The position numbers and the translations under genes were made by a program. Under the pieces are notes generated by a model. That model was not told the origin of the DNA. It saw only the letters and a program-made list of their open reading frames with translations, and did no database searches. Positions 38,654 to 44,628 of a stretch of DNA of 60,418 nt are shown here, piece after piece; position 1 is the first letter of the stretch; each line of letters opens with the position of its first letter. The stretch covers positions 1 through 60,418 of the forward strand of contig JABIDL010000014.1 in the NCBI GenBank assembly GCA_018651745.1, in the 5' to 3' direction. The DNA is from Candidatus Neomarinimicrobiota bacterium. Lineage in GTDB: Bacteria > Fidelibacterota > Marinisomatia > Marinisomatales > TCS55.

Positions 38654-38864
38654 TTATCCCGTTTTGGGTACATCCATTTCAGGATCTACAATAATAAATC
38701 TTGGAGGCTGTACTCTGGATGCAAAAAACAGACCTTTCTGCTTTGTGGTAGATCAAGGTAGTTTGCTGTATTCAGGAGGCCACCACCGTGTCGATACTCG
38801 GTCCTGAAATTGGTCTCAAAACGGGAAGAATTTGCCCCGCGTGAACCCTTGGCGGGGCTTTTTA
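38654..38864 (+). ncRNA. Structured intergenic RNA, possible 6S-type RNA
   Basis: This fills most of the 362 bp gap between the symporter and HMG-CoA reductase genes, with no plausible protein. Two long-range perfect helices close it: TCCCGTTTTG (38657-38666) with CAAAACGGGA (38817-38826), and ATTTCAGGA (38676-38684) with TCCTGAAAT (38802-38810). Inside, GATCTAC (38683-38689) can pair with GTAGATC (38748-38754), competing for two bases with the second helix. A canonical terminator follows at once. A long rod closed end-to-end, about 180-210 bases, own -10 and terminator fits 6S RNA, which binds sigma70-RNA polymerase; primary sequence does not prove it. tmRNA, SRP RNA and RNase P RNA signatures are absent. 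Flanks 38591-38641 and 38867-38952 hold only promoter-like AT-rich sequence. Confidence 0.55.
38834..38864 (+). terminator. Rho-independent terminator of the intergenic RNA
   Basis: GCCCCGC (38834-38840), 11-base loop, GCGGGGC (38852-38858), then TTTTTATT. A strong GC stem 8 bases after the closing helix of the RNA. It would also stop read-through from the symporter gene into the lipid operon. Confidence 0.9.
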
Positions 38865-38952: not shown

Positions 38953-40110
38953 ATGACAATAAAAAAACAAAAAAATAATATCACGATCCCAATTGGGTTT
39001 ACTAGCGCTGACACAAAAAAGCGACTGGATTGGATCAAGGACAAATCGGGGTTGGATTTTAAAGATGATATCCAAAATAGTCCTGAAGATCTAAAAGGAA
39101 TCATTGAAAATCATATTGGTTTTATGAAAATACCAATGGCAATTGCCGGTCCATTGCTTATTTCAGGCAACCATGCTAAAGGTGAATTTTATGTTCCGCT
39201 TTGTACTTTAGAAGGGACCCTAGCCATTTCCATGAACCGTGGAATGGCAGCCGCAAGGCGAAGCGGCGGTTTCACCGTAAAACATATCAAACAAGAATTA
39301 TCACGCGCGCCAGTATTTATATTTCAAGATATTGATGCGTCAACCAAATTTATGAAATGGGTTGATTCCCATTTTTCAGCGATTAAGAAGATTGCAGAAT
39401 CGACATCCAATCATGGAAAGCTGATTCGGATTGATCAATACCCAATTCAAAATTATGTTGTACTTGATATGGTGCTTGACACCGGGAATGCAGCTGGGCA
39501 AAATATGGTGACCCTTGCCGCAAAAGCTGCTTGCGATTTCATCAAAGAAAAAACAGGACACTCTTTTATCCTGGAGTCCGGATTTAACAGTGATAAAAAA
39601 GCATCTGCACGAAATATGATTTTGGGACGAGGGCATAGCGTTATAGCTGAAACAACAATACCTAACTCAATTTTGCGTAGAATTCTGGGAATTAAAATTT
39701 CTGATGTAGAAAAATTCCAATTACTTGGTCCGACCATAACCACATTGGCTGGAACACAAGGATGCCATTTACATATTTCCAACGCACTAACCGCTCTATA
39801 TCTTGCAACTGGTCAGGATACTGCATGTGTTGCAGAAAATTCGATTGGTCATTTTCAAACAGAACCTGTCGATCATGGAATGAAATTCAGATTAACACTT
39901 CCCTCTGTCACAATTGGAACAGTCGGTGGTGGCACAAGACTTCTCCCCCAAAATCAAAACCTTCAACTTCTCAATTGCCATGAAGGGAAACATACTTCAA
40001 AAAAACTCGCAGAAATTATTTGCGCTTCAAGTCTTGCGCTCGAGATTTCGCTAATGTCTGCCATCGTTTCTGATACATTTACCAAAGCGCATATGAAATA
40101 TGGACGATAA
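38953..40110 (+). CDS. HMG-CoA reductase family enzyme
   Basis: 385 residues, class I-like catalytic domain only, no membrane anchor. HMG-CoA reductase uses two NAD(P)H to turn an acyl-CoA thioester into a primary alcohol (mevalonate). Family motifs: ENHIGFMKIPMAIAGPL (52-68), LEGTLAISMNRG with catalytic E87, SDKKASARNMILGRGHSV with K215, ATGQD with D289, GTVGGGTRLLPQ (322-333), and C-terminal H380 in TKAHMKYGR. All four catalytic residues are present. The dinucleotide motif DAMGMN reads NAAGQN (179-184), Asp replaced by Asn. Heads an operon with acyltransferase, AGPS and SDR genes (3 bp gap). Mevalonate synthesis is the default role; supplying a lipid alcohol for ether-lipid synthesis is a context-based alternative. 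Confidence 0.88.
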   Translation: MTIKKQKNNITIPIGFTSADTKKRLDWIKDKSGLDFKDDIQNSPEDLKGIIENHIGFMKIPMAIAGPLLISGNHAKGEFYVPLCTLEGTLAISMNRGMAAARRSGGFTVKHIKQELSRAPVFIFQDIDASTKFMKWVDSHFSAIKKIAESTSNHGKLIRIDQYPIQNYVVLDMVLDTGNAAGQNMVTLAAKAACDFIKEKTGHSFILESGFNSDKKASARNMILGRGHSVIAETTIPNSILRRILGIKISDVEKFQLLGPTITTLAGTQGCHLHISNALTALYLATGQDTACVAENSIGHFQTEPVDHGMKFRLTLPSVTIGTVGGGTRLLPQNQNLQLLNCHEGKHTSKKLAEIICASSLALEISLMSAIVSDTFTKAHMKYGR

Positions 40111-40113
40111 TGG

Positions 40114-40830
40114 ATGTTAAATATTCCCGTCCTTGACAATCCCAAGTATGCCTACCTCGTACACAAACAACCCATTTTTTTTCGATTATGGAAAAACTTA
40201 TTTTATATCTACTGTAGATTTGTTTTTTCTTGGTACGTCCCAGTTACAATTTTTGGACGGGAAAAAATTCCAAATGCTTCCGCTATTTTTTGCAGTAACC
40301 ACAACAGTCATATGGATGTTGCGTTGGTTAGCACAGCAGCCGGGAAAAGCTTTAACCATTTTGGAATGCTCGCAGCAAAAGATTATTGGTTCGATAACTC
40401 ATTCAAACGAATTCTAATAAATTTAGTCATGAATTTGATTCCTATCGCTAGAAGATCTACAAAAAATAAAGATACTTTCCCCTTTTCAGATACAATCACC
40501 ATTAGCAAAGCATTTATGGAATTAGGGAAACGGAATTTGGTCATTTTTCCTGAAGGATCACGTGGTAAACCAAATGAGATCAAACCATTCCGCAAAGGCG
40601 CAGCCCGTTTTTCCACTGAATTGAATGCACCCATTGTGCCTGTATTTATTCATGGTTCTGGGAATTCTTGGCCCAAAGGAAATTTATTTATGAAACCAAC
40701 TCGAATCCAAATCAACATTCTAGATCCAATGTATCCAAGTGAATTCGATCATCATTCTGATCCCGTCACTGCTTTCACCAATGAACTTGAATCCAGAATT
40801 AAAAATGCAGGACACACCATTCATGGCTGA
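40114..40830 (+). CDS. PlsC-type 1-acyl/DHAP acyltransferase
   Basis: 238 residues. Lysophospholipid-acyltransferase fold with the catalytic HX4D motif NHNSHMD (H63, D68) and the phosphate-binding FPEGSRG (145-151), followed by FRKGAARFS. A hydrophobic N-terminal segment (about 22-46, LWKNLFYIYCRFVFSWYVPV) would associate it with the membrane. By itself this could be a 1-acyl-glycerol-3-phosphate acyltransferase; between HMGR-like and AGPS genes it is a good candidate for either DHAP acylation (GNPAT-like step) or acylation of alkyl-glycerol phosphate at sn-2. Begins 3 bp after the reductase gene; its last 8 bp overlap the AGPS start. Confidence 0.88.
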   Translation: MLNIPVLDNPKYAYLVHKQPIFFRLWKNLFYIYCRFVFSWYVPVTIFGREKIPNASAIFCSNHNSHMDVALVSTAAGKSFNHFGMLAAKDYWFDNSFKRILINLVMNLIPIARRSTKNKDTFPFSDTITISKAFMELGKRNLVIFPEGSRGKPNEIKPFRKGAARFSTELNAPIVPVFIHGSGNSWPKGNLFMKPTRIQINILDPMYPSEFDHHSDPVTAFTNELESRIKNAGHTIHG

Positions 40831-42577
40831 CAATAAATTTTTCGCAATTAATAATGAAACTTGGGGACATAAATGGGGCTATAGAGATACCAAGTTTGTC
40901 CTTAATGATGATATGACCGTTTCAATGACCGGCAGCCGATATGAACTCTGTGGCGCACGCATGCCTGATTTTATTCCGTATATCGAGGAAGTACTTGGAA
41001 TAATAATCAATCCTGAAGAAACATTACCTGAAGTAGAAGAAAAACCGGTGAATTCATCTCATATTAATGAAGAATTTTTCGAAAAAATCAAGCAGACTTT
41101 CCCAGAGGATCGGTATTCAATAAAAGATAAAGACCGATTGCTGCACAGCCATGGTCAAACAACTTCAGAAGAAGTTTATAAAATTTTATACAATAAAATT
41201 GATCGAACAGCGGACATGGTTTTTTATCTCGAATCAGAGGAAGAGACCAAGCAACTGATTCAATTTGCAATCGAGTTTAATGTTTGTCTCATCCCGTTCG
41301 GAGGCGGTACTAGCGTAAGTAGCGCTTTAAAAATTCCGGAAGCTGAAAGCCGGATGGTTGTTGCTGTTGATCTTCGTCGAATGGATGAGGTAGAATGGAT
41401 TAATGAAAAAGATAGAAGAATTTGCGTTCAAGCCGGCATTACAGGAACTGAATTGGAAAACAGGTTAGCTGAAAAAGGTTTTTGCGTAGGCCACGAACCG
41501 GACAGTGTTGAATTGTCCACACTCGGTGGATGGATCGCCACCAATGCAAGCGGAATGAAAAAGAATAAATATGGCAATATTGAAGATATCGTTGAAAATG
41601 TAACTATGATTACACCAAACGGTGTTATTGAACAAGTATCACCTCTCTCCCGCGCATCCATCGGCTTCAAACCTCAAAATATATTATTTGGGTCTGAAGG
41701 AAATCTTGGTATTATTACCAAGGCTATCTTAAAAATTCACAAATTACCCGAAGTAAAAAAATACAATTCCGCTGTGTTTAATGATTGGGATGCAGGAGTC
41801 GAATTTCTATACGAATTATCAAAAACCAACTTTATTCCCTCAAGTGTTCGTTTGGTTGATAATATACAATTCAGATTTGGACAAGCTTTAAAACCGAAAG
41901 CGGAAGGCATTCATAAATTGATAGATTCAATTAAAAAATTCGTACTATTAAATTTAAAAGGATTTGATGGTGAAAAACTTTGCGCTGTTACCTTTGTTAT
42001 GGAAGGCACTTCCGGGGAAGTATCGTATCAGGAAAAAAATACCTTATCTTTAGCCAAAAGGCATGGCGGAATGGTTGGTGGTCCCGGAAATGGGAAACGG
42101 GGATATATGTTAACCTATGCCATTGCATATGTACGAGATTTTCTTACAAAATTTCACGTGATTGGTGAAACGATGGAAACATCGGTTCCGTGGAGTAAAA
42201 TCCCTGATGTATGTAAAGCAGCAACTCAAACATTATATGACCTTCATGCAAAACATAATATCCCGGGCAAACCCTACATTTCCTACCGCATTCCTCAAAT
42301 TTATCATACAGGAGTGTGTATATACTTTATGTTGGGAATGAGCATCAAAGGTATTCCAAACGCTGAAGATGTATTTTGTGAAATTGAGCATGCCATTCGA
42401 AAAGCAATTATGGATCACGGCGGTTCAATTTCTCATCATCATGGCGTTGGTAAACTTCGAAAGGATTTCATGAGTGATACCCTTTCTGATTCCAGTATGA
42501 AACTTATCAAAGATATGAAAAATTCTCATGATCCTGCTAATGTGTTTGGAATCCGAAACGGAATTTTTGCTGAATAA
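40823..42577 (+). CDS. Alkyl-dihydroxyacetonephosphate synthase homologue (AGPS)
   Basis: 584 residues from the ATG at 40823; the longer frame to 40739 adds residues read from the acyltransferase gene. An FAD-binding oxidase of the vanillyl-alcohol-oxidase fold, closely resembling animal AGPS along its whole length. Matches in order: WGYRDTKF (18-25), FAD loop PFGGGTSVS (158-166), QAGITGTELENRL, GHEPDSVELSTLGGW (223-237), SGMKKNKYGNIEDIV, VRLVDNIQFRFGQALKP, KRGYMLTYAIAYVRD with R426, and SISHHHGVGKLRK (535-547) with the catalytic histidine pair. AGPS swaps the acyl chain of acyl-DHAP for a fatty alcohol, forming the ether bond of plasmalogens and other ether lipids. No peroxisomal presequence, as expected for a bacterium. 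Confidence 0.93.
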   Translation: MADNKFFAINNETWGHKWGYRDTKFVLNDDMTVSMTGSRYELCGARMPDFIPYIEEVLGIIINPEETLPEVEEKPVNSSHINEEFFEKIKQTFPEDRYSIKDKDRLLHSHGQTTSEEVYKILYNKIDRTADMVFYLESEEETKQLIQFAIEFNVCLIPFGGGTSVSSALKIPEAESRMVVAVDLRRMDEVEWINEKDRRICVQAGITGTELENRLAEKGFCVGHEPDSVELSTLGGWIATNASGMKKNKYGNIEDIVENVTMITPNGVIEQVSPLSRASIGFKPQNILFGSEGNLGIITKAILKIHKLPEVKKYNSAVFNDWDAGVEFLYELSKTNFIPSSVRLVDNIQFRFGQALKPKAEGIHKLIDSIKKFVLLNLKGFDGEKLCAVTFVMEGTSGEVSYQEKNTLSLAKRHGGMVGGPGNGKRGYMLTYAIAYVRDFLTKFHVIGETMETSVPWSKIPDVCKAATQTLYDLHAKHNIPGKPYISYRIPQIYHTGVCIYFMLGMSIKGIPNAEDVFCEIEHAIRKAIMDHGGSISHHHGVGKLRKDFMSDTLSDSSMKLIKDMKNSHDPANVFGIRNGIFAE

Positions 42578-42579
42578 AC

Positions 42580-42584
42580 AGAGG
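42580..42584 (+). promoter_or_regulatory. Ribosome binding site supporting an ATC start
   Basis: AGAGG, 7 bases before ATC at 42592, between the AGPS stop and the SDR gene. No ATG, GTG or TTG occurs in the SDR frame before 42844, so this site is what decides the start. Confidence 0.55.
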
Positions 42585-42591
42585 CTGTCCC

Positions 42592-43398
42592 ATCAATCTT
42601 TCCGGTAAAACAATTGTAGTAACAGGTGCATCATCCGGCATCGGAGAATCTCTTTCAAAAAAGTTAGCATCGGCGGGTGCAAAAGTTGTTCTAGCCTCAC
42701 GTAATGAGATAAAACTTAATCAAATTTATGTTGATATTACTCAGGATGGAGGAACTGCTTTTGTCATCCAAACAGATATCACAAAAAGCGAGGATTGTTC
42801 GACATTAATTGAATCTACTGTAGAAACTTTTGGCTCATTAGATATGATCATTCTCAATGCCGGAATCAGTATGTGGGCGCCTTTTGAAAAAATTAAAGAT
42901 GTATCCTTTTTTAAAAAAATTATGGATGTCAATTATACAGGTTGTGTGAATTGTATTCATTCTGCATTGCCGGAATTAAAAAAATCACATGGAAAAATTG
43001 TAGCTATTACTACCGCTCAGGCTATTGTCGGGTTTCCACATCATACAGGATATGCAGCATCTAAACATGCCTTACAGGGGTTTTTGGAGTCATTAGAAAT
43101 GGAACTTGATGGTCAAGTACATTTCGCGAATGCCTTTCTTGGATGGATCAAAGGAACAAATTTGCGAGAGAATGCTTTTGGATCGGATGGAATACAATTG
43201 GGAGAAGCACGACACAGTCATAATCATAACGCTGTTGGACTGGAAATCTGTACCAAGCAAATTATTGAGGCAATCCAAACAGATAAGAAATCAATATATA
43301 TACCCGGAAAATTAAGATTTATTCCATTCCTAAAATTATTTTTCAGAAAATGGCTTTTGAATAATATAACAAAAAAGGTTGGGGATCACGGTTCCTGA
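42592..43398 (+). CDS. Short-chain dehydrogenase, candidate alkyl-DHAP reductase
   Basis: 268 residues if translation begins at ATC 42592, giving [M]NLSGKTIVVTGASSGIG, a textbook SDR start; the first in-frame ATG (42844) would delete the whole nucleotide-binding motif. TGASSGIG (11-18) binds NAD(P)H, LNAG replaces NNAG, and the active site is YAASKHA (Y154, K158) with Thr instead of Ser at 141. The segment from YAASKHALQGFLESLEMEL and the hydrophobic C-terminal tail (FIPFLKLFFRKWLL) resemble DHRS7-family proteins, of which mammalian DHRS7B/PexRAP is the acyl/alkyl-DHAP reductase. Directly follows AGPS, so reduction of alkyl-DHAP to alkyl-glycerol-3-phosphate fits. It ends flush with the convergent hflX stop. 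Confidence 0.82.
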   Translation: MNLSGKTIVVTGASSGIGESLSKKLASAGAKVVLASRNEIKLNQIYVDITQDGGTAFVIQTDITKSEDCSTLIESTVETFGSLDMIILNAGISMWAPFEKIKDVSFFKKIMDVNYTGCVNCIHSALPELKKSHGKIVAITTAQAIVGFPHHTGYAASKHALQGFLESLEMELDGQVHFANAFLGWIKGTNLRENAFGSDGIQLGEARHSHNHNAVGLEICTKQIIEAIQTDKKSIYIPGKLRFIPFLKLFFRKWLLNNITKKVGDHGS

Positions 43399-44628
43399 CT
43401 AAGTAGGAAGTGAAGATTGAATTTGTTCAATTCTTCTTCGGCTTCCTCGAATTGTTAATTTCACTCCCGTTTCCAGGTACTCCCTATTTAATACGACAAC
43501 TCCCTCTTGCGATTCTGACACAATTTTCCCGTTTTTGTAAGATACTTCTACTTCTATTGTTTGAAAATTCTGCTCCATAATTTCAAGAATCTTATTTTTC
43601 AACTGGTCAATCCTTAGAGATTCAAGCGCGCTAACAGCAATGCTGTCCGGAAATGAATTAATTGAGGAACTTATTTGTTCTACATCTTGAACCAAGTCTG
43701 CTTTATTTAATACAATTAACCGAGGAATTTTCTCGGCATCTAAATCCTTTAGCACCTCATCGATGGTCTTCAAATGATCTTTCAAAAACGGAGAACTAAT
43801 ATCTAATACAATTATGAGCAAATCAGCTTCGAGCACTTCCTTTAAAGTGCTTCGAAAAGATGCAACAAGATGGTGAGGGAGTTTGCGGATAAACCCCACA
43901 GTATCGCTTATCAAACATGTATGTGTGTCACCAAGTTGGATTCGTCGGATCGTAGTATCAAGTGTTGCAAAAAGTTGATCTTGAATAAAAACGTCGGATC
44001 CGGTCATACATTTGAATAAAGTAGATTTGCCAGCGTTGGTATATCCAACAAGTGCTGTACGAAATTCCGTTCGTCGTTTATGCGCCTGTGTACTTCGTTC
44101 CTTTTCAATCCGCTCTAAATCCTTTTTTAATTTTGCAATTTTGGTTCTGATGATTCGTCGGTCAACTTCAATTTGGGTTTCCCCCATTCCGGCACGGGTC
44201 CCAATTCCGCCCATTTGGCGTTCAAGGTGTGTCCATTGGTGGGTAAGGCGAGGCAATAGATATTGATAATATGCCATTTCCACTTGGGTTTTGGATTCCC
44301 TCGATTGAGCATGTTGTTTAAAAATATCTAAAATCAGAGCACTGCGATCAATTATTTTTATATCATCAGTAAGATCCATATAATTCTTGACCTGTGCCGG
44401 TGTAAGGTCTTCATCAAAAATAATTAGATTTACTTTTAATTCCTTCGCTTGGCTTATAACTTGCTCAGCCTTTCCTTTTCCTAAGAAATATTTTGGATTT
44501 ATTCGGTTTAAGTTTTGAATAATTCTACCGGATACATTTGCACCGGCTGTTTCTGCGAGAAGATTTAATTCATCCAAATGTTCACCAACATCTTGTCTGG
44601 AAACTTTTCCATGAACAACACCAACCAA
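43399..44628 (-). CDS. hflX: GTPase HflX
   Basis: 409 residues. N-terminal HflX domain with GRIIQNLNRINPKYFLGKGKAEQV (split motifs NRINPKYFLGKGK and FDEDLTPAQVKN), the GMGETQIEVDRR linker, then the G domain: G1 GYTNAGKSTLF (about 193-203), G3 DTVGFIRKLPHHLVASF, G4 NKAD. HflX splits stalled or hibernating 70S ribosomes and is stress-linked. The C-terminal ~50 residues form a small extra domain. Abuts the SDR gene end-to-end (no spacer) in convergent orientation, with no terminator between. Upstream gene is the BatA/VWA protein (34 bp). Confidence 0.95.
   Translation of the reverse strand: MVGVVHGKVSRQDVGEHLDELNLLAETAGANVSGRIIQNLNRINPKYFLGKGKAEQVISQAKELKVNLIIFDEDLTPAQVKNYMDLTDDIKIIDRSALILDIFKQHAQSRESKTQVEMAYYQYLLPRLTHQWTHLERQMGGIGTRAGMGETQIEVDRRIIRTKIAKLKKDLERIEKERSTQAHKRRTEFRTALVGYTNAGKSTLFKCMTGSDVFIQDQLFATLDTTIRRIQLGDTHTCLISDTVGFIRKLPHHLVASFRSTLKEVLEADLLIIVLDISSPFLKDHLKTIDEVLKDLDAEKIPRLIVLNKADLVQDVEQISSSINSFPDSIAVSALESLRIDQLKNKILEIMEQNFQTIEVEVSYKNGKIVSESQEGVVVLNREYLETGVKLTIRGSRRRIEQIQSSLPT

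Follow-up and report, generated by a model that had tools for sequence, protein, structure and literature searches.

What a homologue of HMG-CoA reductase (HMGR) does at the head of an operon that also encodes an acyltransferase, an alkyldihydroxyacetonephosphate synthase (AGPS) and a short-chain dehydrogenase (SDR) is the question raised by a 60,418-nucleotide stretch of DNA (the window) from a Candidatus Neomarinimicrobiota genome, a draft of 1.86 Mb that is 96% complete. This phylum also goes by the names Marinimicrobia and Marinisomatota. The operon appears to direct synthesis of alkyl-ether membrane lipids by the four steps that animals carry out in peroxisomes, with a repurposed relative of HMG-CoA reductase making the alcohol.

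The initial annotation described four co-directional genes, and a reading-frame check confirmed all four frames on the + strand between 38953 and 43398, together with their spacing (a 3 bp gap, an 8 bp overlap and a 14 bp gap). The features of the locus are listed below.

38834..38863, + strand: intrinsic terminator upstream of the cassette, with a 7 bp GC stem, an 11 nt loop and a T tract

38953..40110, + strand: FcrA-type HMG-CoA-reductase homologue, predicted alcohol-forming fatty acyl-CoA reductase; 385 aa; PF00368 1.2e-100

40114..40830, + strand: PlsC-family acyltransferase, predicted DHAP (or alkyl-G3P) acyltransferase; 238 aa; PF01553 5.8e-18

40823..42577, + strand: AGPS, alkyldihydroxyacetonephosphate synthase; 584 aa from ATG 40823; PF01565+PF02913 1e-34/1e-33

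42592..43398, + strand: short-chain dehydrogenase, predicted alkyl-DHAP reductase; 268 aa, ATC start; PF00106 2e-47

The terminator (GCCCCGC-GTGAACCCTTG-GCGGGGC-TTTTT) folds into a stem, and at the other end of the operon a convergent gene on the minus strand (43399-44628), presumably hflX-like by its sequence, ends directly against the SDR stop; these two boundaries therefore delimit a unit of exactly four genes. The SDR frame has no ATG, GTG or TTG at its start. It opens with ATC at 42592, behind AGAGG, and no standard in-frame start precedes it; therefore, the mechanical ORF list truncates the SDR to a start at 42844.

Judged by its sequence, the third gene is unambiguously an AGPS, as first annotated, and is predicted to exchange an acyl for an alkyl group on DHAP. 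In a search against solved structures, the protein matched guinea-pig AGPS (4bby) over residues 16-579 at 6.5e-147 and 493 bits, and a second deposited AGPS structure (2uuu) was matched at 1.2e-81. The best non-AGPS chain, a lactate dehydrogenase, reached 79 bits, which rules out a misnamed D-lactate or glycolate oxidase and disposes of the earlier concern that the protein might fall in another FAD-oxidase clade. In the 4bby alignment, the window AGPS is identical at the positions of Arg419, Arg515, Tyr578 and His615-617 (guinea-pig numbering), which we take to be the active site, and an SHHHG motif was found in the AGPS of every cassette.

AGPS was searched for in 150 genomes of the class, and about 10-17 kb around each match was examined. 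Thirty-six genomes carry AGPS, and the order HMGR-PlsC-AGPS-SDR, which the initial annotation suggested looking for in relatives, is intact on one strand in 30 Neomarinimicrobiota genomes, including that of the window; four further cassettes are interrupted by contig ends or spread over two contigs. With AGPS identity to the window protein as low as 50% among the 30, the order is conserved far beyond chance. PF00368 was detected in 34 of the 150 genomes, all 34 of which bear AGPS, and the gene lies inside the cassette in every one and never outside it, a very strong association (Fisher p about 1e-31, uncorrected for relatedness, related genomes not being independent). Two of the 36 AGPS genomes have no PF00368 protein: G142, which is 64% complete and has a partial AGPS, and G015, which is described below.

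The first gene product resembles FcrA (Grossi et al. 2025), a class-I HMGR homologue that uses NADPH to turn long-chain acyl-CoA into fatty alcohol, shows no reduction of HMG-CoA and is insensitive to simvastatin (PMC11948995). The hallmarks of FcrA are retention of the four catalytic residues, a Ser684 to Glu change, small residues in place of a pocket lysine, and a bulky residue in place of Leu862 (PMC11948995); the lysine is printed there as Lys795, but its distance from the catalytic Asp, Asp441, suggests position 735. FcrA-diagnostic residues were present in all 34 cassette sequences examined. Catalytic Glu559, Lys691, Asp767 and His866 are invariant in all aligned cassette proteins, and the window protein has Glu at 684, Gly at 735 and Phe at 862. 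Across the alignment, position 684 is Glu or Asp, position 735 is Gly, Ala, Ser, Leu, Phe or Tyr and never Lys, and position 862 is Phe or Trp; human and archaeal HMGR have Ser684, Lys735 and Leu862. Some cassette proteins therefore differ from described FcrA in having a large residue (Phe, Tyr or Leu) rather than a small one at 735. Further changes common to the cassette proteins fall at DAMGMN motif positions of HMGR (Asp653 to Asn/Glu, Met655 to Ala/Ser and Met657 to Gln). In a small tree whose canonical references numbered just two and which included no characterised FcrA, they cluster (SH-aLRT 99) with proteins of Anaerolineae and Pyrinomonadaceae that have FcrA-type residues, and human and archaeal HMGR fall outside this group. 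Like the FcrA of Natronomonas and Ca. Promineifilum, the cassette proteins belong to the class-I HMGR family, keep the catalytic tetrad and come from genomes without a mevalonate pathway, with Ser684 replaced by Glu or Asp, Lys735 lost and a bulky residue at 862 (PMC11948995). Some known FcrA carry an N-terminal Lad domain (PMC11948995), whereas no N-terminal domain was detected in cassette FcrA. The window protein is a PF00368 protein and does not have the PF07993 plus PF03015 architecture of FAR1-type reductases.

An alternative put forward with the initial annotation, that the enzyme is a true HMG-CoA reductase providing mevalonate for an archaeal-like isoprenoid ether lipid, would account for the PF00368 match and all four catalytic residues, and a PcrB/GGGP-synthase-family gene is indeed present in the window genome and 20 of the 36 AGPS genomes. 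However, PcrB is unlinked to the operon and missing from many cassette genomes, and the companion genes of a mevalonate pathway, which it had been suggested to look for, did not emerge. HMG-CoA synthase had no match over cut-off in any cassette genome; PF01154 matches of 19-25 bits, mostly in frames of about 330-355 aa, were not counted and look like FabH-type ketoacyl synthases. Mevalonate kinase was over cut-off in none of the 36 AGPS genomes, with TIGR00549 matches that reach 124 bits against a cut-off of 163 bits assigned to other GHMP kinases. The MEP-route enzyme DXR was found in 143 of the 150 genomes and in all 59 that are near-complete with low contamination, and the MEP pathway is present in almost every cassette genome; isoprenoids are therefore made without HMGR. 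Both HMG-binding residues, Ser684 and Lys735, are replaced in every cassette protein, and a fatty acyl-CoA reductase (FAR) takes the gene's slot in G015. The substrate of AGPS is a fatty alcohol, not mevalonate. A mevalonate or isoprenoid role was rejected on the missing synthase and kinase, the presence of DXR and the altered HMG pocket, and a true HMGR at this position is highly improbable. Because mevalonate genes over cut-off are lacking, the residue changes are those of FcrA and a FAR is exchanged for the gene in G015, it is very unlikely that the HMGR-like protein is an HMGR. Given the PcrB/GGGP-synthase-family gene elsewhere in the genome, isoprenoid ether lipids may be a further product, by a route separate from the operon.

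The strongest evidence for function comes from G015, in which two non-homologous fatty-alcohol-making enzymes appear to have been exchanged in one operon slot. G015 lacks HMGR but has orthologues of the window's PlsC, AGPS and SDR genes; the slot ahead of PlsC is occupied by a gene whose 563-aa product combines PF07993 (219 bits) with PF03015, the domains of a true FAR. Its AGPS is sister to those of the FcrA-bearing genomes G028 and G034 of the same family (SH-aLRT 99). A PF07993 search for FAR in the 36 AGPS genomes, a check of the kind that had been suggested, returned this one high-scoring protein, in G015 only, replacing the HMGR-like gene; other PF07993 matches (<=62 bits) were taken as ordinary epimerase-type SDRs because 14 of 14 control genomes also have them. 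In other phyla, 20 of 38 AGPS loci have a FAR nearby. Locus L073 has the order FAR-acyltransferase-AGPS-SDR, L095 has FAR-acyltransferase-AGPS followed by a different SDR, and L080, L091 and L099 pair AGPS with a FAR-acyltransferase fusion, as in Myxococcus MXAN_1676-1674 (PMC9131029). The exchange is evidence independent of the residue reading. The FcrA-type residues, the G015 replacement, the FAR genes beside AGPS elsewhere and the absence of mevalonate genes all favour the original suggestion that the HMGR-like protein supplies the fatty alcohol.

The second gene encodes a 238-aa PlsC-type protein, not a large GNPAT/PlsB-like one, with the motifs NHNSHMD (HX4D) and FPEGSR. Its best structural match, which is weak, is the bacterial sn-2 acyltransferase 5kym, and it resembles sn-2 enzymes more than GNPAT/PlsB. 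This raises the possibility that the operon does make ether lipids and that the PlsC-type protein acts after the SDR, acylating alkyl-G3P at sn-2 while another enzyme acylates DHAP. The larger, different acyltransferase that partners AGPS in other phyla also points that way (for the 652-aa partner in L073, searches of Pfam and of solved structures gave no match). We nevertheless consider sn-2 acylation unlikely, though it deserves more weight than the other alternatives: the PlsC gene is fixed directly before AGPS, G015 retains it alongside FAR, and in animals and myxobacteria the corresponding partner of AGPS is a GNPAT-like acyltransferase (PMC9131029). The window genome also has three other PF01553 genes, to which the cassette copy is additional and which are available for ordinary sn-2 acylation; for this reason, acylation of DHAP is the likelier role of the cassette protein.

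The SDR, a candidate DHRS7B/PexRAP-type reductase, scores over the NCBIfam cut-off for PRK06181 and has the motifs TGASSGIG and YAASK. It adjoins AGPS in Neomarinimicrobiota, in Poribacteria and in L073. This position fits a role in alkyl-DHAP reduction without proving it, the family being large and its substrates unreadable from sequence.

Taken together, the operon probably encodes a self-contained alkyl-ether glycerolipid pathway of FcrA, PlsC-type acyltransferase, AGPS and SDR, a reading to which we assign a probability of roughly 85%. The reductase, acyltransferase, AGPS and dehydrogenase steps first assigned to the four genes are supported by the FcrA residues, the swap in G015, the FAR-AGPS loci and the missing mevalonate genes. 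In the proposed pathway, FcrA would use NADPH to reduce long-chain acyl-CoA to the fatty alcohol, and the PlsC-type enzyme would acylate DHAP at sn-1. AGPS, with FAD, would then put the fatty alcohol in place of the acyl group to give alkyl-DHAP, which the SDR would reduce to 1-O-alkyl-glycerol-3-phosphate for entry into normal phospholipid synthesis. What the sequences themselves show is the protein families, the catalytic residues, a conserved gene order, the co-occurrence of the genes, the replacement of FcrA by FAR and the lack of mevalonate genes; substrates, step order and lipid product are inferred.

The FcrA enzymes characterised so far take part in making wax esters (PMC11948995), and the cassette FcrA might likewise supply alcohol for wax esters, its place beside AGPS being incidental. 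Unlike those enzymes, however, cassette FcrA sits in an AGPS operon in genomes without the wax-ester synthase WS/DGAT, which had no match in any of the 36 AGPS genomes, and FcrA occurs outside the AGPS cassette in none of the 150 genomes. A wax-ester role was rejected on the absence of WS/DGAT, and its probability is very small. The AGPS pathways of animals and Myxococcus feed plasmalogens (PMC9131029), and a CarF-type desaturase (PF10520) is present in the FAR variant G015, so that a vinyl ether rather than a plain alkyl ether could be the final product. G015 is the only genome with this desaturase; a search confined to the CarF family found it in none of the 34 FcrA genomes, and a plasmalogen product is improbable. 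Given the lack of both WS/DGAT and CarF, the likely product is alkyl-glycerol-3-phosphate, and a plain alkyl ether is the likelier end point. In Myxococcus xanthus, the AGPS gene contributes little to the ether lipids formed (PMC9131029), and the presence of AGPS is therefore no proof of abundant ether lipid.

The animal peroxisomal pathway (FAR1, GNPAT, AGPS and PexRAP/DHRS7B) comprises the same four activities inferred here, with a homologous AGPS whose active site is conserved; the operon differs in its non-homologous first reductase of the HMGR family, its PlsC-type acyltransferase and the lack of a compartment. M. xanthus MXAN_1676-1674 likewise combine AGPS with an acyl-CoA reductase domain, an acyltransferase (GNPAT-like there) and a dehydrogenase, but there a FAR1-type Rossmann reductase is fused to a large acyltransferase, an epimerase-type dehydrogenase stands in place of the operon's SDR, and the gene order differs (PMC9131029). 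AGPS has been reported in 49 of 134 Black Sea Marinisomatota MAGs as single-gene matches, and no operon, FcrA or pathway was found described there (PMC11868695). The authors of the FcrA study suggested an ether-lipid role and pointed out that AGPS lies nine genes away in Promineifilum and that fcrA has a PlsC-like neighbour in Coxiella (PMC11948995). Thus, AGPS in the phylum (PMC11868695), FcrA and FAR-AGPS operons are already known, and an ether-lipid role for FcrA has been suggested from looser linkage. No description of a fixed FcrA-PlsC-AGPS-SDR operon or of in-place FAR/FcrA exchange was found in the literature searched, which excluded subscription papers and preprints, and both appear to be undescribed. 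The initial annotation's view of the gene set as new appears to hold for the fixed operon, while the HMGR step is less novel than supposed, FcrA being known (PMC11948995).

The swap of FAR and FcrA in one slot is strong natural evidence that enzymes descended from HMGR supply ether-lipid synthesis, a proposal made in 2025 and not shown then. More tentatively, and with somewhat less than even confidence, we propose that the four genes make up an entire alkyl-ether pathway that can be transferred and whose alcohol-forming reductase (FcrA or FAR) is interchangeable, that ether-lipid rather than wax-ester synthesis may be the ancestral role of FcrA, and that much of Neomarinimicrobiota makes alkyl-ether phospholipids in this way. 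Bacterial class-I HMGR annotations may also be wrong in genomes without a mevalonate pathway. Ether lipids in ocean water are often interpreted as a sign of archaea or of certain bacterial groups; with its fixed ether-lipid operon, this uncultured and widespread marine phylum would be a further likely source, testable with four genes.

The intergenic region between dctA and the cassette carries a conserved structured RNA.

Window 38657-38863: the structured RNA.

The predicted fold (MFE -93.9, z -5) is a long, rod-shaped hairpin that carries a small hairpin on its side, and the window copy includes the intrinsic terminator. Counterparts in eight relatives are 71-82% identical, with two-sided changes at 13 pairs. 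The RNA looks like 6S RNA, though nothing in Rfam matched it at gathering level.

At the other end of the cassette, the window SDR gene (42592) has no ATG, GTG, or TTG at its start, and the same is true of eight relatives (L033, L034, L035, L036, L038, L047, L049, and L050). In all nine, an ATT or ATC codon lies at or near the position where other loci have their ATG, TTG, or GTG start; it is possible that AUU/AUC is used to start the SDR gene across the clade, as in infC.

Several other loci bear on the cassette or on its predicted alcohol-forming enzyme, FcrA.

L073:5859-7817 and L095:5827-7821 (other phyla): acyltransferase-like proteins of 652-664 aa, flanked by FAR and AGPS.
G034:C356:8940-9209 (L052:8763-9212): approximately 3.3 kb downstream of a cassette, a second copy of FcrA begins; the contig end interrupts the gene.
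L168:343-3063 (Spirochaetia genome): one 907-aa protein, an HMGR domain with the FcrA residues followed by an APH-type kinase domain.

No Pfam family matched either acyltransferase-like protein, and a comparison of the L073 protein with solved structures gave no match. The AGPS of the G018 FcrA cassette (L064) groups with Poribacteria and FAR-bearing L073, unlike its FcrA, which groups with family f18; this cassette is possibly a second module exchange. The Spirochaetia genome also encodes AGPS-SDR, and in spirochaetes with AGPS but without FAR1, the step otherwise catalysed by FAR might be carried out by FcrA.

Of the 36 AGPS-bearing genomes of the class, 20 have a PcrB/GGGP-synthase-family gene, and the window's own genome has one.

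G000:C2:35872-36555: PcrB/GGGP-synthase-family gene of the window's genome.

Its presence suggests a separate potential for isoprenoid glycerol ethers.
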